Shown: in pieces, positions 3,564-47,549 of the stretch
Numbering within the stretch: position 1 is the first letter of the stretch
Layout: every line of letters begins with the position of its first letter
Assembly: GCA_016933965.1 (NCBI GenBank)
Contig: JAFGTS010000055.1
Coordinates: 1-64,000, forward strand
Length of the DNA: 64,000 nucleotides
Source: Deltaproteobacteria bacterium
Lineage (GTDB): Bacteria > Desulfobacterota > Syntrophia > Syntrophales > UBA2210
Direction of reading: 5' to 3'
The notes under the pieces: generated by a model
Seen by the model: the letters and a program-made list of their open reading frames with translations, nothing else
Database searches by the model: none
What the model was told of the DNA's origin: nothing
Position numbers and translations under genes: made by a program

Positions 3564-3823
3564 GCTTTTCGTCTCCTTTTCCAGTGGTTACTTCTCATCA
3601 AAGACATCGATATCGGCACACTGCAAAAACTTTGACCTCAGGAATCCCTGATTCCATCAGCAGCGCCTCAGTGCCTGGTTGATCCCCCTTTGAAAAAGGG
3701 GGATTGAGGGGGATTTTCAAGTATATAAATCCCTCCCGGCCTCCCTTTGCTAAAGGGAGGTGAAAAACCGTAATCCGTAATCCATAATCCCCATTCCCGA
3801 ATCCCGCCTCCTGATCCCCTCAC
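3564..3823. repeat. Composite repeat: double-hairpin element A between inverted octamer/heptamer arrays
   Basis: 3682-3768 is copy A of an 86-bp element with two hairpins, CCCCCTTTGAAAAAGGGGG and CCTCCCTTTGCTAAAGGGAGG-like. It is preceded by a short TGCCTG unit (3669-3677) and followed by TAATCC and CCCGAAT arrays and a CACTCAGGCAC unit (3818-3833) that contains the stop codon of the next gene. Copies B (12984-13069) and C (26917-27002) have the same flanks. 3606-3622 holds another GCCGAT-type small hairpin. Confidence 0.82.
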
Positions 3824-12859: not shown

Positions 12860-13107
12860 ACGGGGGATTAACGGGGTACGGATTAGCGGATTACGGATTA
12901 ACGGATTAGTTATTTTATTCACAAATCTGCATCCCTGATCACGCCCATGGTGCCTGAGTGCCTAAATGCGTGACAAAACCTGCTTCCCCCTTTGGGAAAG
13001 GGGGATCGAGGGGGATTTCAAATACATAAATCCCTCCCGGCCTCCCTTTGCTAAAGGGAGGTGAAAAACATAATCCGATAATCCGTAATCCATAATCCGT
13101 TACTCAG
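12860..13107. repeat. Composite palindromic repeat with double-hairpin element B
   Basis: In order: GGATTA heptamer array directly after the stop codon (12860-12908), two TGCCTGAG units (12949-12966), the 86-bp double-hairpin element (12984-13069), and an array of TAATCCG units (13070-13105), the inverse of the first array. The outer arrays could pair and form a long cruciform around the hairpins. No gene is present between 12860 and 13176. Confidence 0.85.
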
Positions 13108-26880: not shown

Positions 26881-27060
26881 GTGCCTGAGTGCCTGAGTGC
26901 CTGAGTGCAACAGAAGTCCCCCTTTGTAAAAGGGGGATTGAGGGGGATTTTCAAGTATATAAATCCCTCCCGGCCTCCCTTTACGAAAGGGAGGTGAAAA
27001 ACCCAAGGGTTGTTTGTTAATAATTACGACGGTTCGCACTCAGGAACTCAGGTACTCAGC
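26881..27060. repeat. Composite repeat with double-hairpin element C, inside the dehydratase cluster
   Basis: Three and a half perfect GTGCCTGA octamers (26881-26908) begin six bases after the stop codon. They are followed by the 86-bp double-hairpin element (26917-27002) and by CACTCAGG-type octamers in inverse orientation (27037-27060). It separates the two subunits of what is presumably one enzyme. Confidence 0.85.
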
Positions 27061-38649: not shown

Positions 38650-38679
38650 TTGACAAACGGTGCGCCCTGCATTTACAAT
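38650..38679 (+). promoter_or_regulatory. Sigma-70 promoter of the sigma-54 activator gene with embedded half-site
   Basis: TTGACA (38650-38655) and TACAAT (38674-38679) with an 18-base spacer. The spacer contains CGGTGCGCC (38658-38666), identical to the left arm of the palindrome at 45733-45750 upstream of the sigma-54-type promoter. This suggests autoregulation by the encoded activator. The rest of the 351-base divergent spacer (38431-38781) shows nothing else I can name. Confidence 0.75.
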
Positions 38680-40501: not shown

Positions 40502-40888
40502 TCACTCCTGCCCCGATTCCTCCAGGGCCCGCCGGTACCCCGAATACTCGGGATTGTCGATGGATACCTGCCCCGTAGTGGTTTCGTAAAGATGGTGGAA
40601 CAATACGCCGTCGCGATAGTCCATGCTCTTGTCCCGAAGACGGCGGCAGAGTTCCTCATTCAGTTCCGCAATACTACCGTCGGTCCCGAGCAATGTACGG
40701 AGCCGTTCATGTTCCTGAGAGGAGAGCAGCGGCCCCAGTTGGAGTTCCCTCCGCACCAGTGCCAGGACGTTGACGGCAACGCGGGTATGAAAGGCCCGGT
40801 GTGAATCGAGGACTTTGATGATCCGTTTTTCAAGAAACTCCTGGACGGCCTCAAGAAGTTCATCTGTAGTCGGTCGTGGTGATGCCAT
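40502..40888 (-). CDS. DUF6285-type small protein
   Basis: 128 residues. The pattern LLEAVQEFLEKRI, FHTRVAVNVLALVRREL, LNEELCRRLRDK and the DNPEYSGYRRAL end match my memory of the DUF6285 family, which is regularly encoded beside APH-type phosphotransferases and acyl-CoA genes. Function unknown; mainly helical and cytoplasmic. It lies one base after the phosphotransferase gene, last in the operon. Confidence 0.8.
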   Translation of the reverse strand: MASPRPTTDELLEAVQEFLEKRIIKVLDSHRAFHTRVAVNVLALVRRELQLGPLLSSQEHERLRTLLGTDGSIAELNEELCRRLRDKSMDYRDGVLFHHLYETTTGQVSIDNPEYSGYRRALEESGQE

Positions 40889-40889
40889 G

Positions 40890-41882
40890 TCATTCCCTCT
40901 CTTTCAGCAGGCGCAGCAGGTCGATTTCCGTTTCCGAAGTTCGCCGTCCGATGGCGGCCAGTTCGACGGAGCGTTTCATTCCAAGAAGATGGGTGAATCC
41001 CTGCATGATACAGGCGATGCCCCATTTCAACGTGCCGTATACTTCCCAGAAATGAACCGCCTCTGGATCGACGGGTACGCCCCCCGCTTCTTCGTATCCT
41101 GAGAAGAGGTCTTCCCGGGTGCCGAAACCCCCGACGGGCAGGTCGATATTGCCGAAGCGCCATGAGTTGACACAGATCCAGCCGAGGTCCTCCATGGGGT
41201 CGCCGAGATGGGCGAGTTCCCAATCGAGGACGGCTTGAATGCCGTCGGGACCGACGATGAAATTTCCGTTCCTGAAATCGCCGTGGACCAGACGCAGTTC
41301 CCCCTGATTCGGGAGGTGGTCCTGGAGCCAGCGCAGGGTAAATTCAAAGACAGGGTGTTTCTCACCAAAGATGTCTAAAAAGGTATACAACTCCTTCACC
41401 GCCGCTTCCGTCGTTTGTTTCTTGAGGGGCGGAAGAAGGCCGGTATCGACGGCATGTATGCCGGCAAGAATCGTTCCACACTGCCGGGCCATGATGTCCC
41501 GTGCCCGGGCGTACTCGTCGTCGCGCAGTATCTTCCGTGCGATGGTCTCACCCGGTACGCACTGCATGGCGTACCCGGGACCGATCTCGTCATCATCGTT
41601 GAGGATGAAACGAATGGAGGGGACGGGTACCCCGCCTTGTTCGGCCGCCCTGAGGACCTGTGCCTCCGTGAGACGGTCGAGGCGGTAGCCGTCTTTCTTC
41701 CCTCCCGGCGGCGACAGCCTGAGTATGAGCTCATGGCGGGTATCCCCGCAAAGAGCAACAAAAGACCACATCTCCGATGATGCGCCGCCGGAGAGCGGCC
41801 GGAGGCCTTCAATGACCGCCGTTTCTCCCAGATGTTGCGAAGCCGCGCCGGAGAGTATGCGGGCAAGTTCTTCCTGTTTCAT
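40890..41882 (-). CDS. APH-family phosphotransferase (ACAD10/11 N-domain-like)
   Basis: 330 residues with the aminoglycoside-phosphotransferase/choline-kinase fold. The catalytic loop LVHGDFRNGNFIVG (HxDxxxxN-type) and the metal-binding LDWELAHLGDPMEDL are intact. Homologues fused to human ACAD10/11 phosphorylate 4-hydroxyacyl-CoAs, so a hydroxyacyl-CoA kinase role fits this operon with its acyl-CoA ligase. That is inference from family and context. Confidence 0.88.
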   Translation of the reverse strand: MKQEELARILSGAASQHLGETAVIEGLRPLSGGASSEMWSFVALCGDTRHELILRLSPPGGKKDGYRLDRLTEAQVLRAAEQGGVPVPSIRFILNDDDEIGPGYAMQCVPGETIARKILRDDEYARARDIMARQCGTILAGIHAVDTGLLPPLKKQTTEAAVKELYTFLDIFGEKHPVFEFTLRWLQDHLPNQGELRLVHGDFRNGNFIVGPDGIQAVLDWELAHLGDPMEDLGWICVNSWRFGNIDLPVGGFGTREDLFSGYEEAGGVPVDPEAVHFWEVYGTLKWGIACIMQGFTHLLGMKRSVELAAIGRRTSETEIDLLRLLKERE

Positions 41883-41885
41883 GAT

Positions 41886-42920
41886 CTATTCCCATTCCTT
41901 TCCCGCCGGTTCGCCGTTGATGATCTGATCGAGATATTCCGACATGCCGTATCCGACCATGTCCTGATACCGGTATTCGGTCATTCCCTCGGTGATACGC
42001 GTCTCGAGCATTTCACCGGCCTTGTTCTTTCTCCGGTTGCGAAGCGGAATGAGCGACAGCACCTTTCCGTCGATGATGTATTCCCCGTCATCGGTATTGG
42101 CCTTCAACCGCAGGCCGGTCTGATAATAGTTCTTGTCCCAGTTCGTTTCCAGTTTTACTTCCTTGAAGGGAGCATACCGGTCCTTGTCAAGCATGATCCC
42201 CATCATCTGGTGATTTCCGTCCTTTTTCCCCATGATCATGAACATGAAACCCAGGTCGGGGCCGAAGTTCATAGGCAGCCACCGGTACCAGTGGATGTTC
42301 TGCCAGTACCGGGGACCCCATGAGTGGTCCCGCAGGCCGAAGCCGTCTATGTTCCACTCCCGGTCCTGGACGCGGATGGTACCGGTACCGCTCAGGTGTT
42401 GCTCGTAGTGTGCTTTGGCAAAGGCTTCCTCCGGGCGTTCCACAAAAGCAGTCCCGTCCTTATTGACCATCTCGCCGCCGAAAACCGGCCCGAGCCCCTG
42501 AAAATCAAGTGCGACCGAGCAGTCGACAATGGGATTTTCCGTAAAGGCCTTCGCCGGGTTTGCCAGGTCATGAGGGTTTTTCATAAGACAGACCTGGCCG
42601 TTATAAGTGACCCGCAGGCGCTTCAGCGGTTCCACGATTTCGAATTTCAAGCCCGCCGCATCAAGGGCGTCATTCGATGAAATTTCGGGGCGGCTGAAGA
42701 TAAACCCGACACTTCCGTCGGGAAGATACAGACAGCAGGACACCTCGGCCTTTCCCTCATTCGGGCGGTTGCCCACGCGAAACCAGCCGCCCATGACCTG
42801 CTTGAAGTCGAATATGTTGATATACATGCTCTCGTTGAAATTCTTCGCATCATCGACGGGGTGATTGTATTCATCTTCCGGCGCAATCCTGAATGACATG
42901 GTATCGAGCATATTTTTCAT
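41886..42920 (-). CDS. Lipocalin-like (AttH/CrtC-type) protein of unknown function
   Basis: 344 residues without a signal peptide. The protein looks all-beta, with GFGLRDHSWGPRYW and MGGWFRVGNRPNEGKAEV motifs reminiscent of the paired lipocalin domains of AttH/hydroxyneurosporene-synthase-like proteins; current databases may list it as a DUF. Members occur with steroid and acyl-CoA genes and probably bind or hydrate a hydrophobic ligand. Its start overlaps the ligase stop by four bases (ATGA). Confidence 0.65.
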   Translation of the reverse strand: MKNMLDTMSFRIAPEDEYNHPVDDAKNFNESMYINIFDFKQVMGGWFRVGNRPNEGKAEVSCCLYLPDGSVGFIFSRPEISSNDALDAAGLKFEIVEPLKRLRVTYNGQVCLMKNPHDLANPAKAFTENPIVDCSVALDFQGLGPVFGGEMVNKDGTAFVERPEEAFAKAHYEQHLSGTGTIRVQDREWNIDGFGLRDHSWGPRYWQNIHWYRWLPMNFGPDLGFMFMIMGKKDGNHQMMGIMLDKDRYAPFKEVKLETNWDKNYYQTGLRLKANTDDGEYIIDGKVLSLIPLRNRRKNKAGEMLETRITEGMTEYRYQDMVGYGMSEYLDQIINGEPAGKEWE

Positions 42921-44572
42921 GAAATATCTGCCTCCCTTTCTTTCATATATTCGTCCCGTAACATAAATCGCATGACCTTACCAAGTTCAAATCGCCGCGG
43001 GAGCTGATCGATGTACCAGATCGCCGACGGTGCCTTGTAGCTTGCCAGTTGTTCCTTGCAGAACCCGATGAGTTCTTCCTCAGGGGCCGTTTCAGCCGTT
43101 TCCCCCGGTGCCAGGACGACGGCCGCAATCACGCGGGATCCCCACGCGGGGTCGGGAACACCGAAGACGGCTGATTCCGTAACTTTGGGATGCTGGTTGA
43201 TCCTGCGTTCGACTTCAACGGGGAATATGTTCTCCCCGCCGCGGTTGATCATGTCCTTCGCTCGGTCGGCGAAGTACACATATCCGTCTTCGTCCATCCA
43301 TCCGGCATCACCGGTATGGAACCAGCCGTTTTTGTCAAAGGCCTTTGCTGTTGCCTCGGGATTCCGCCAGTAGCCGGGGGTTACTTTCTCGCCTCGTGAA
43401 ACGATCTCTCCCACCTCGCCGGTAGCCACTTCTTTGCCGAAAGGATCTAAAATTGTACTCTCGATCCCATAACGGAGGGGACGGCCTATGCCCTTCAACC
43501 GGGCGATCTTTTTCTTGACTTCTTCGTCGGAACCCGTCAGATCGTGGTCTTCGGGGAGCTTGGCTATATTGATGCACAGCTCCGTCGAACCAAAGGCATC
43601 CATATATTTGATACCCGGGGGAAATTTTTTCAGGATATCTAGGAGAAGGTCAGGAGCCATCGGCATCGCGCCATAGAAGACAAAGCGCAGGTTGCTGAGG
43701 TCGTACTTCCCAAAGGAGGGATCGTGGATGATGAAAAAGAACATGATCGGTACCAGGTAACACATGCTGACCCGCTCACGTTCCACGGTCTGCATGAACG
43801 CTTCCGGCACAAAATCCGTTGAGACAACGATGGTGTAGCCGTATTTCATGCCCACATAGAGTATTCCGATACCTGCAATATGATACACGGGAATAATCAT
43901 CATGACAACGTGATAGCCCAGATCGGGAGGTACCGTGTCATCGATGAGGTCTCCCAGTTCACCGTAAATATTCGTCATGAGCTGCCGGTGGGTGGCGATA
44001 GAACCTTTGGGAAGGCCCGTAGTTCCACTAGTGAAGCATATTGCCACAATATCGTCCAGGATCAAATCCGGCATTTCAGGTTCATCTCCCGTCTCCCGGG
44101 AGAGCGTTGTTTCATAATCGACCGCCCATTCGGGGCAGTCGCCATCACCGGTACACAGATAGTTTGTTACTCCCAGTTGATAGGAAAGAGTGGGCTCGAA
44201 AATTGGTATATACCGTTTTTCCAGTATCAGCGTTTTTGCCCCTGATTCATTCAGGATGAAAAGCGCCTCGGGACTTTTCAAACGGAAGTTCATGGGGACA
44301 CATATTGCGCCGAGTTTCAGGATCGCCAGGTACTGCTCCAGGTATTGCCAGCAGTTGTTCTGGAATATGGCGACGCGATCTCCCTTGCCCACCCCCAGAC
44401 CTGCGAGATAATGTACCAACTGGTTTGCCCGCTTGTTAACCTCCCCAAAAGTCTTTTTGACGCTTCCGTTGTCGGTAACGACGGCCGTTCTGTCGGGATA
44501 ATTATTAATGGTTTCAGTAATGTATTCGAGCAGATTGTTTTTCTCAAATGTTATCGGTACATACTCTGACAT
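42917..44572 (-). CDS. AMP-forming acyl-CoA ligase
   Basis: 551 residues of the ANL superfamily: CFTSGTTGLPKGSIATH, the DAFGSTELC adenylate motif, GWFHTGDAGWMDEDG, the hinge DRAKDMINRGGENIFP and the C-terminal Lys in FELGKVMRF. It activates a carboxylic acid as its CoA thioester. AAAGGAGGAAG precedes the ATG. It is the second gene of the operon read from the sigma-54-type promoter; its substrate may be the ring-opened product of the phosphotriesterase-like lactonase. Confidence 0.94.
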   Translation of the reverse strand: MSEYVPITFEKNNLLEYITETINNYPDRTAVVTDNGSVKKTFGEVNKRANQLVHYLAGLGVGKGDRVAIFQNNCWQYLEQYLAILKLGAICVPMNFRLKSPEALFILNESGAKTLILEKRYIPIFEPTLSYQLGVTNYLCTGDGDCPEWAVDYETTLSRETGDEPEMPDLILDDIVAICFTSGTTGLPKGSIATHRQLMTNIYGELGDLIDDTVPPDLGYHVVMMIIPVYHIAGIGILYVGMKYGYTIVVSTDFVPEAFMQTVERERVSMCYLVPIMFFFIIHDPSFGKYDLSNLRFVFYGAMPMAPDLLLDILKKFPPGIKYMDAFGSTELCINIAKLPEDHDLTGSDEEVKKKIARLKGIGRPLRYGIESTILDPFGKEVATGEVGEIVSRGEKVTPGYWRNPEATAKAFDKNGWFHTGDAGWMDEDGYVYFADRAKDMINRGGENIFPVEVERRINQHPKVTESAVFGVPDPAWGSRVIAAVVLAPGETAETAPEEELIGFCKEQLASYKAPSAIWYIDQLPRRFELGKVMRFMLRDEYMKEREADIS

Positions 44573-44625: not shown

Positions 44626-45600
44626 TTAGTCTCCCGCAAGGAGCCGCCGTGGATTATCGATCAGCATGGTATTGATCTGGTCGTCGCTGACGGCCGCCTT
44701 CTTAAGTGCCGGGATGATATCCTTGAATATGTGTGTGATATGGTAGTTCGGCATGACAAGGCCTATAATGTCAGAAACGCCCTGTCTGCCGAGCCAGTAA
44801 TTGACGAAATCATGGGAAATCATGATCTTGTCGGCGTAGCCGAGGCCGAGAAGGCCGATGAGACAGGCGATCCTGCGGGAATCTGGCGGCGTTCCGCCCA
44901 CGCCTTCAACACCGAAACGATCAAATCCGATAGAGACGCCCTTTTCAAGGACCCGAAGCAAGTAGTCGATATCCGTCGATCCGCCGATGTGGCCGATCAT
45001 GATCCGTTTCGGGTCGGCCCCTTCGGCGATAAGCAGATCGGCCTGCTCGGGACCGAGTTTCCCCTCCTGGGTATGGGTGATAATGGGGATCCCGTCCTCT
45101 TTTGAAACCCGTGCGGCTGCCTTGAAGAACATCGTTTCATAATCCGTGATCGCTTCCTTGCTGGACGCGACCTTGAAGACGGCGGGCTTGATACCGGTAT
45201 CCCCGACGCCCTTCGTCACTTCCGTCTTGAACATCTCGTAGACCTGTTCCGTTCCGTCACCAAGCTGGCTTCGAAGCTTGAAATAGGGCGGGGCTCCTTC
45301 TCCCTCGAAGTAGTATCCGCTGGAACAGAGAACGGTAAGGCCGCTCTTTTCAGAGATCTCCCTGAGCAGTTTCACGTCCCTGCCGCATTCGTTCGGTGTG
45401 GCGTCAACGATGGTCTTCACGCCCTGCTCCTTCACCGCCTCGGCCATCTTCAGACCGGCCTCCATACAGGCATCACGGTCAAAAGGGCCCAGCGTGGCGT
45501 CGCCCTGCCAGCCGGGAAATCCAAAGAGAAAATGCTCGTGTATCAGGGTCATGCCTAACTTCTTGGAAGGCACTGATCCCGAAACGGTGTTGATATTCAT
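44626..45600 (-). CDS. Phosphotriesterase-family (PTE/PLL-like) binuclear metal hydrolase
   Basis: 324 residues with a complete binuclear site: His21 and His23 (IHEH), the carboxylated Lys143 (VFKVAS), His176 (THTQ), His204 (IGHIGG) and Asp264 (SHDF). The family includes phosphotriesterases and lactonases; without a nearby organophosphate pathway, a lactone or ester hydrolase is the better guess. AAGGAGGGA precedes the ATG. First gene of the sigma-54-controlled operon, and so perhaps its first enzymatic step. Confidence 0.9.
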   Translation of the reverse strand: MNINTVSGSVPSKKLGMTLIHEHFLFGFPGWQGDATLGPFDRDACMEAGLKMAEAVKEQGVKTIVDATPNECGRDVKLLREISEKSGLTVLCSSGYYFEGEGAPPYFKLRSQLGDGTEQVYEMFKTEVTKGVGDTGIKPAVFKVASSKEAITDYETMFFKAAARVSKEDGIPIITHTQEGKLGPEQADLLIAEGADPKRIMIGHIGGSTDIDYLLRVLEKGVSIGFDRFGVEGVGGTPPDSRRIACLIGLLGLGYADKIMISHDFVNYWLGRQGVSDIIGLVMPNYHITHIFKDIIPALKKAAVSDDQINTMLIDNPRRLLAGD

Positions 45601-45656: not shown

Positions 45657-45672
45657 AGCAACATGCGTGCCA
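45657..45672 (-). promoter_or_regulatory. Sigma-54 (-24/-12) promoter
   Basis: On the minus strand the sequence reads TGGCACGCATGTTGCT, which matches the consensus TGGCAC-N5-TTGCW at every fixed position. It is 57 bases upstream of the phosphotriesterase-like gene and correctly oriented. Confidence 0.9.
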
Positions 45673-45732
45673 TGAATGTCGCCCGGAGTGGCTTTACCTC
45701 AATATATTGATATTACTAGATATCGGCCAGAT

Positions 45733-45750
45733 CGGTGCGCCAGCGCACCG
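45733..45750. promoter_or_regulatory. Perfect palindrome, probable activator binding site
   Basis: CGGTGCGCCAGCGCACCG is an 18-base palindrome with perfect 8-base arms, about 60 bases upstream of the -24 element, a usual distance for an enhancer-type site. Its left arm recurs in the promoter of the sigma-54 activator gene at 38658-38666. Confidence 0.75.
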
Positions 45751-45917
45751 CAGTCCTTCTTGCCGGGCTGTTGCGCCTGAATAAGACACTCTGTCCCATC
45801 GTGTTTCAGCTTGTGCCGGTTGAAGAAAAGCCGGGAGGCTTTACCGGGGACATCCAAGATTCCCTGCAAAGGGGGAAGAAAAGGGAGGACATACCCTTTC
45901 TATCGGCCAACAATTTC

Positions 45918-45946
45918 TTGACATGCACAGATACATCCTGTAAAAA
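45918..45946 (+). promoter_or_regulatory. Sigma-70 promoter of the Kelch-type lipoprotein
   Basis: TTGACA (45918-45923), a 17-base spacer and TAAAAA (45941-45946), followed by AT-rich DNA up to the gene at 46005. Within the 404-base divergent spacer 45601-46004 the other visible sites are the sigma-54 promoter and palindrome. Confidence 0.6.
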
Positions 45947-46004
45947 TACCTAAATTAATTTAATGATATTCAACATGGTTACATTACCTTAGAAGGGGTA
46001 GACT

Positions 46005-47549
46005 ATGAAAAATGCACTTTCTTGGAAAAAGGGATTTCTTGTATTCGGTCTGATCGTTCTGTCAATGCTGTTCATCCTCGGATGCAGCGATGATAACAAG
46101 ACGATCCGGATTCCCGATGATAATGACGAGCAAAACACATACTACCCCGGAAAGGCCGAGATCGTGACAGCTGACACGATCGCGTGGGGTGCTGTGAACC
46201 CGACGGTTGTTATTACGGCAATAGACTTCCAGTTTGATGTGAACATCACGGCTGCTGACCTGCAGGTGGACCCGGGGACGACGAATCTGCAATTGTTCCA
46301 GGTCACCTGGTTGAACGCGACGCAGATACGGGTGGCATTAACGGGAACGGCGGCCTACGGAGAGGTGCTGATCGAGGCTGATACATATGACACCGATACG
46401 CTGTCCATTGTCATCCCTCCCCACATAACATCGGCGGATACGATCCCCTGTGATGCCGTCGATCCGGCCGTTACCGTCACCGTGGACGACGGACTGGACT
46501 TTCAGGCCGGTATCACGGTCGGTGATATGACGGTGGATACGGGGACCACGGGTTTGACCTTCGATTCCGTTATCTATGTGAATGCGACGGAAATAACCAT
46601 CGTGTTCACGGGAACGGCAGAGGGTGGACGGGTTTCGATCCAGGCGAACGGGTCGGCCTTCGTGGCGGATGATGAAGAAGAAGACGACAGTAACATCCTG
46701 GTGTTTGGTGTCTGTGACCCCGTTGACCCCTGGGCCACGATCGCGACCGCGGACAATTGGCTCACGAACAATCCTTACTTTGACAAACACGATGGCGGGT
46801 GGGTCTACTCGCCCCGCGAAGACGTCCTGTACGCCTTTTACGGCAACGATGCGGGAACCACAGGAAGAAACCTCTATCGCATCGACCACATCGGGCAGAC
46901 GTTCACCCTCGCGACGGTCCTGACCTACGGCCGCCACGGGTCGCATCCGGTGATCGACGACACCGGCACGTACATCTACCTGCCCCCATCGCAGCAGACC
47001 AACGTTCTCGAGCGTTACAACACGGTGACGTTCACCCTGGAAACCCTCGCGGGGGCACCCGCGAACGGCACCTTCGCCCATGGGGCGTGGAAGAACGGTA
47101 AGCTCTGGATCGTGCTCAACAACAACCAGCTTTACAATTACGATCCCGCATCCAACACATGGACCGGTGTGCACGGGTTCAGCAGTTGGGCCAATGTGGC
47201 ATCTTCGGGTCCGGCGTCCGATCTCGTCTATGTCATTGTCGTGGGCGGGGCTCTTTACTCGCACAATACCGTCACTGACACAACCACCATTCTTGCGTCT
47301 CATCCCTATGGCTTCAGCCTCGGCGGCAACGGCCAGTTCGTCTGGTTCGGCACCACCATCGGTTACCTCTATGCCATGGGCGGCTGCAGCGGCACCCCTG
47401 CCATGTACGATATCGGTGCCAATACCTGGCATGCCATGGCAGACCCGAAGCCGAACTCGAACTGTGTCGGCCACGCGACCTACGATACCCTGCGACAGCG
47501 TCTGTATGTGGCGCATGGGAACAGCAGTGCTTTCTACTACCAGTATTAG
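46005..47549 (+). CDS. Lipoprotein with two Ig-like modules and a Kelch-like propeller
   Basis: 514 residues. The signal peptide ends in FILGC. Residues about 45-135 and 136-225 are two related beta modules (ITSADTIPCDAVDP and GTTGLTFDSVIYVNATEIT-type sequences). From about 240 to the end the protein has Kelch/propeller-like strands (NTVTFTLETL, YNYDPASNTWTG, MYDIGANTWHAM). A surface-exposed, outer-membrane-anchored binding protein is likely. Its upstream promoter and downstream terminator make it monocistronic. Confidence 0.88.
   Translation: MKNALSWKKGFLVFGLIVLSMLFILGCSDDNKTIRIPDDNDEQNTYYPGKAEIVTADTIAWGAVNPTVVITAIDFQFDVNITAADLQVDPGTTNLQLFQVTWLNATQIRVALTGTAAYGEVLIEADTYDTDTLSIVIPPHITSADTIPCDAVDPAVTVTVDDGLDFQAGITVGDMTVDTGTTGLTFDSVIYVNATEITIVFTGTAEGGRVSIQANGSAFVADDEEEDDSNILVFGVCDPVDPWATIATADNWLTNNPYFDKHDGGWVYSPREDVLYAFYGNDAGTTGRNLYRIDHIGQTFTLATVLTYGRHGSHPVIDDTGTYIYLPPSQQTNVLERYNTVTFTLETLAGAPANGTFAHGAWKNGKLWIVLNNNQLYNYDPASNTWTGVHGFSSWANVASSGPASDLVYVIVVGGALYSHNTVTDTTTILASHPYGFSLGGNGQFVWFGTTIGYLYAMGGCSGTPAMYDIGANTWHAMADPKPNSNCVGHATYDTLRQRLYVAHGNSSAFYYQY

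Follow-up and report, generated by a model that had tools for sequence, protein, structure and literature searches.

The lva operon of Pseudomonas putida (LvaR, LvaABCDEFG), which is associated with levulinic acid, includes the kinase LvaA, and this enzyme, with its mammalian counterparts ACAD10/11, phosphorylates 4-hydroxyacyl-CoA en route to beta-oxidation (PMC10164729, PMC12440821). At the orp1 operon of Desulfovibrio vulgaris, which requires IHF, the activator site lies at -131 and IHF sites lie at -79 and -42 (PMC3897727). Many activator sites of Clostridiales consist of TGT and ACA repeats spaced 10-12 bp apart (PMC6615313). Here, we describe a five-gene operon within a 64-kb window (the whole stretch of DNA that was analysed, 64,000 nucleotides) and compare it with these systems. 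In our reading, which we regard as likely, the locus is a self-contained sigma-54 catabolic operon with a candidate enhancer, a candidate IHF site, a promoter, and an adjacent activator.

The operon, its activator, and a related locus

The five genes are tightly packed. The genes for the acyl-CoA synthetase and DUF7064 overlap, gaps of only 1-3 bases separate DUF7064 from the kinase and the kinase from DUF6285, and 53 bases lie between the phosphotriesterase (PTE)-like gene and the synthetase gene. The PTE-like protein matches its family over its full length, has the HxH motif, and finds its best PDB matches in DR0930 and the Geobacillus lactonases (E about 1e-113), and the PDB matches of the kinase include ACAD11 (8v3v, 1.4e-8). 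A gene for an APH-family kinase also adjoins one for DUF6285 in Sulfitobacter, Variovorax, and Thermus; in the first two, acyl-CoA synthetase and dehydrogenase genes flank the pair, and in Thermus a dehydrogenase gene does. Across the phylum, the DUF7064, APH kinase, and DUF6285 genes also adjoin one another without a PTE-like gene (L146, L147, L148, L151, L144, and L145), and the data suggest that these three products act together. An in-frame TGA suspected in DUF7064 homologues was rejected, as it proved to be an ordinary stop codon in the one example inspected (L118).

The activator gene adjoins the operon. Its product was originally predicted to be a GAF/AAA+/Fis protein, and two of these three parts were confirmed: the AAA+ sigma-54 interaction domain (PF00158, 211 bits), with the GAFTGA stretch ETGAFTGAKRGG in the translation, and the C-terminal Fis-type helix-turn-helix (HTH_8, 37.8 bits). 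The N-terminal domain can be called only GAF-like, with a GAF score of 21.6 bits that falls just below the Pfam cut-off of 22.4; DhaR chain 4lrx matches residues 77-200. The protein reached no NCBIfam equivalog cut-off. Its genome encodes about 20 sigma-54 activator homologues. A search of genome contigs with the activator returned mostly AAA+-domain matches and no full orthologue. Sensing of a pathway compound by this protein is plausible.

A genome of the same order, but of a different family (G020), carries the activator and all five operon genes with order and orientation kept. The operon enzymes are 74-83% identical to their counterparts, and the activators are 67% identical over their full length, with identical residues ARSTLYRKM in the helix-turn-helix. 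The predicted sigma-54 circuit pairing the operon with the adjacent activator was borne out here, in that promoter, operon, and activator stay together in G020. When DUF7064 was searched for across all 155 genomes of the order, the cluster did not turn up a third time, and a sample of 395 from the phylum yielded only partial, distant operons without the activator. In the distant DUF7064 operons that we inspected, any candidate sigma-54 promoter had at least two mismatches; with neither activator nor near-consensus promoter in them, the footprint could not be extended beyond the two loci. Outside G020, the N-terminal half of the activator found only weak matches in the phylum sample, at no more than 31% identity.

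G020 has a second, TetR-neighboured cluster (L140 6206-11332) that encodes, on one strand, an APH kinase, an acyl-CoA synthetase, a PTE-like protein (65%), and a DUF7064 protein (53%). It contains no DUF6285 gene and no good sigma-54 promoter.

Features of the locus, with positions in the window (strand "." where none is assigned)
Feature	Position	Strand	Basis or remark
PTE-like lactonase family protein, first gene of the operon	44626..45600	-	Pfam PTE
Acyl-CoA synthetase (AMP-binding)	42917..44572	-	Domain match
DUF7065/DUF7064 protein	41886..42920	-	Domain match; homologues elsewhere beside PTE or APH/DUF6285 genes
APH-family kinase, like LvaA and the ACAD10/11 kinase domain	40890..41882	-	Pfam APH; HGDFRNGN, DWE
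DUF6285 small protein, habitual partner of APH-family kinase	40502..40888	-	Pfam DUF6285
GAF-like/AAA+/Fis sigma-54 activator, 547 aa	38782..40425	+	Pfam Sigma54_activat, AAA_lid_14, HTH_8; GAFTGA present
Sigma-70-like promoter of the activator gene, TTGACA-N18-TACAAT	38650..38679	+	11/12 matches; 0.7 expected by shuffling
Sigma-54 -24/-12 promoter TGGCACGCATGTTGCT	45657..45672	-	Perfect consensus, conserved in G020
Candidate IHF site TATCAATATATTG	45700..45712	-	About -60, between the promoter and the candidate enhancer
Best candidate enhancer (UAS) of the activator, AGACACTCTGTCYCATYGTGT, read on the plus strand as AGACACTCTGTCCCATCGTGT	45784..45804	-	Conserved block
Originally predicted palindrome CGGTGCGC-CA-GCGCACCG	45733..45750	.	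Function not supported
Originally predicted half-site CGGTGCGCC	38658..38666	+	In the 18-bp spacer of TTGACA/TACAAT; chance-level match

The sigma-54 promoter and the candidate IHF site

The perfect -24/-12 promoter predicted on the minus strand upstream of the PTE-like gene held up, and it recurs at the same position in G020. The element TGGCACGCATGTTGCT combines a GG at -24 and a GC at -12 at a spacing of 10 bases, and is separated by 56 bases from the PTE ATG, which is preceded by a good ribosome-binding site, TAAGGAGGG. Nothing else in the window matches TGGCACN5TTGCW, even with one mismatch allowed (1.4 expected). Across the genome, we found six perfect sites against two for the reversed control; of the five besides this one, three immediately precede an open frame. 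Given these counts, the consensus match alone is no proof and the promoter needs further support, which comes from its conservation. Its counterpart in G020, TGGTACATCTATTGCT (L025 16885-16900), lies 55 nt before the PTE ATG with one mismatch, and is the only candidate with GG and GC intact and at most two mismatches in the 19.9-kb G020 locus. Both genomes encode rpoN (RpoN, 473 bits against a cut-off of 277). Judged by these sequence features, the sigma-54 promoter of the operon is genuine and conserved.

Between this promoter and the upstream block considered below lies the only exact copy of the IHF consensus, WATCAANNNNTTR, in the window (1.3 expected). The G020 equivalent, AAACAGTATGTTG, has two mismatches and likewise lies 28 bp from the -24 element. 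One gene for IHF-alpha scores above an NCBIfam cut-off; IHF-beta-like genes fall short of theirs.

A conserved upstream block and the neighbouring palindrome

Farther upstream, the two genomes share a 21-base block: AGACACTCTGTCCCATCGTGT and its G020 equivalent AGACACTCTGTCTCATTGTGT (L025 17012-17032) are identical at 19 of 21 bases, and each sits exactly 111 bp past the -24 element of its own genome. Its score was reached in none of 1,000 shuffles. The remainder of the upstream region is 40% identical (83/209) on the same diagonal, compared to 72-81% in the genes. A 20-base pattern of the block has one mismatch-free occurrence in each of the two genomes, at the operon promoter. With the start set 12 bases downstream of 45658, the block spans about -138 to -158, inside the 80-200 bp upstream range expected for an enhancer of such an activator. 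Its clearest symmetry is GACA-N3-TGTC or ACAC-N11-GTGT, and it shows no obvious long symmetric site. This footprint, drawn from two genomes only, makes the block a better enhancer candidate than the palindrome, which lies 34 bp closer to the promoter.

The palindrome CGGTGCGCCAGCGCACCG was found where it had been described, but its 18 bases are not perfectly symmetric, since 8-bp arms (CGGTGCGC and GCGCACCG) flank a non-palindromic CA (16/18 bases). The 9-mer CGGTGCGCC does lie inside the sigma-70-like promoter of the activator gene; it takes in the spacer base and is therefore not an identical arm, as had been claimed. The 8-mer arm occurs three times in the window against 2.8 expected, two of these being the palindrome's own arms, and the 9-mer twice against 0.87. 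The window contains 15 inverted repeats whose arms reach 8 bp or more with spacers no longer than 6. At the corresponding place in G020 (L025), 6 of the 18 bases are identical. The exact pattern was absent from the 154 other genomes of the order, almost none of which carries the operon. A terminator at the palindrome was considered and rejected, as there is no terminator-like site there and no gene end nearby.

Other repeats were seen elsewhere in the window. One, a dispersed element some 87 bp long, occurs in three copies (3682-3760, 12985-13061, and 26917-26994; 93-97% identical) and comprises two adjacent hairpins, TCCCCCTTTG..AAAGGGGGA and CCTCCCTTT..AAAGGGAGG; related copies are found elsewhere in the genome (L212 2085-2165 and L195 2438-2501). 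A perfect 15-bp inverted repeat, ATAAAAAAGGCGGCC-TTCG-GGCCGCCTTTTTTAT (1143-1176), gives a hairpin that resembles an intrinsic terminator and can be read on either strand.

On the other side of the intergenic region lies a divergent lipoprotein-like gene (46005-47549, 514 aa) with a weak sub-threshold beta-propeller match only and a sigma-70-like promoter at 45918-45947; it is not present at the G020 locus. The palindrome is G+C-rich, symmetric, and located between two divergent genes of which the second has its own promoter, and it might be the site of a second, unrelated, lineage-specific dimeric regulator that would control either the operon or the divergent gene. We consider this possible but improbable: no second perfect copy exists in the genome or the order, and with three mismatches allowed the genome holds 20 other sites per strand, near the 15 of the reversed control.

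A slightly smaller chance attaches to the view that the conserved block binds a different regulator while the adjacent activator serves another promoter. Another of the about 20 activators could bind the block, whose assignment to the adjacent one was made from sequence. However, the activator adjoins the operon in both genomes, no other genome searched had a full-length relative near 67% identity, and the only perfect -24/-12 site of the window belongs to the operon.

Well behind these comes the original prediction itself, which made the palindrome the enhancer and had the activator repress its own gene at the half-site. The palindrome, at about -95, stands at a workable enhancer distance, one 9-mer is common to it and the activator promoter, and an enhancer can be species-specific. 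However, neither role withstood the comparison with G020, where the palindrome is missing despite the identical helix-turn-helix residues, no CGGTGCGC was found within one mismatch upstream of the PTE-like or the activator gene, and the half-site does not occur. Arm and half-site appear at chance frequency in the window, which holds many comparable inverted repeats, and the block farther upstream is better conserved. In either genome, no segment beyond chance is common to the operon and activator upstream regions, and none beyond chance is shared between the two genomes' activator upstream regions. This prediction is thus very unlikely, and the palindrome is probably irrelevant to the circuit.

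Least probable is a fortuitous -24/-12 match with the operon read from another promoter: consensus matches occur in coding DNA too and exceed the reversed control only as six to two, but in G020 a matching element lies equally far from the corresponding gene, beside a sigma-54 activator, and no sigma-70-like site was found on the operon strand upstream of the PTE-like gene.

The proposed circuit and its place among known systems

We return to the reading of the locus as a self-contained sigma-54 operon. The promoter, the conserved blocks with their spacing, the domains, and the synteny are read from the sequences of the two loci, and they strongly support the pairing of promoter, operon, and activator in what appears to be an ordinary sigma-54 circuit. 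The G020 promoter carries one mismatch, and the IHF-like site there two. For activator binding, IHF bending, the inducer, and the pathway, we infer the following. The activator gene, which converges on the operon's 3' end, would be read from its sigma-70-like promoter. Its product would bind the candidate enhancer some 150 bp before the start, IHF would bend the intervening DNA, and the AAA+ domain would then open the sigma-54 RNA polymerase held at the -24/-12 element. Activation is probably triggered when the N-terminal GAF-like domain binds a pathway compound.

Our best guess, suggested by the gene content, is that the operon breaks down a lactone or 4-hydroxy acid. The PTE-like lactonase would open the lactone, the acyl-CoA synthetase would activate the hydroxy acid, and the LvaA-like kinase with DUF6285 would phosphorylate the 4-hydroxyl, toward beta-oxidation. 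An lva-like route requires an acyl-CoA dehydrogenase, and the operon has none. In the fullest version of this scheme, the activator may sense the lactone, the 4-hydroxy acid, or its CoA ester, the three enzymes may feed 4-hydroxy acids into beta-oxidation, and DUF7064/7065 may perform an undescribed step replacing the acyl-CoA dehydrogenase; taken as a whole, this scheme is speculative and rather unlikely.

The analysis proposes a concrete sigma-54 circuit (enhancer, IHF site, promoter, activator, and operon) for an uncharacterised CoA-linked operon, and ties DUF7064/7065 and DUF6285, families without known function, to a probable lactone or 4-hydroxy acid breakdown. It also illustrates how the comparison with one related locus overturned the palindrome guess: the eye-catching symmetric sequence was unconserved, whereas its less symmetric neighbour was conserved.

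Among known regulators, the activator resembles AcoR, DhaR, and NifA-like one-component enhancer-binding proteins, which likewise combine a GAF-like domain, an AAA+ domain with GAFTGA, and a Fis-type helix-turn-helix and stand beside the operon they control. Unlike them, it fits no NCBIfam equivalog, its N-terminal half stays at or below 31% identity outside G020, and it appears to have its own enhancer sequence. The control region is like that of orp1 in order and spacing, with the activator site at about -131 there and the candidate at about -148 here, IHF sites (a candidate one here) between, and a -24/-12 promoter, and the activator gene (DVU2106 for orp1; PMC3897727) is read by sigma-70 there and probably here. 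On the other hand, the operon is unrelated, the orp operons are divergent and have palindromic activator sites, and orp1 was experimentally tested, whereas the present circuit was built by sequence analysis.

With the lva operon, the locus shares a sigma-54 activator adjoining an APH-family kinase, a small partner, and an acyl-CoA synthetase, and it has the lva-type arrangement of an LvaA-like kinase with an adjoining small partner gene (DUF6285). However, LvaR is described as PrpR-like and divergent (PMC10164729), while the activator here is GAF-like and convergent, and we do not class the operon as an lva operon, because none of its five genes encodes an LvaC-like acyl-CoA dehydrogenase. It is also without the LvaD reductase, and instead carries a DUF7064/7065 protein and a PTE-like lactonase, which resembles DR0930 and GkaP over its full length and in its HxH motif and is a putative lactonase.
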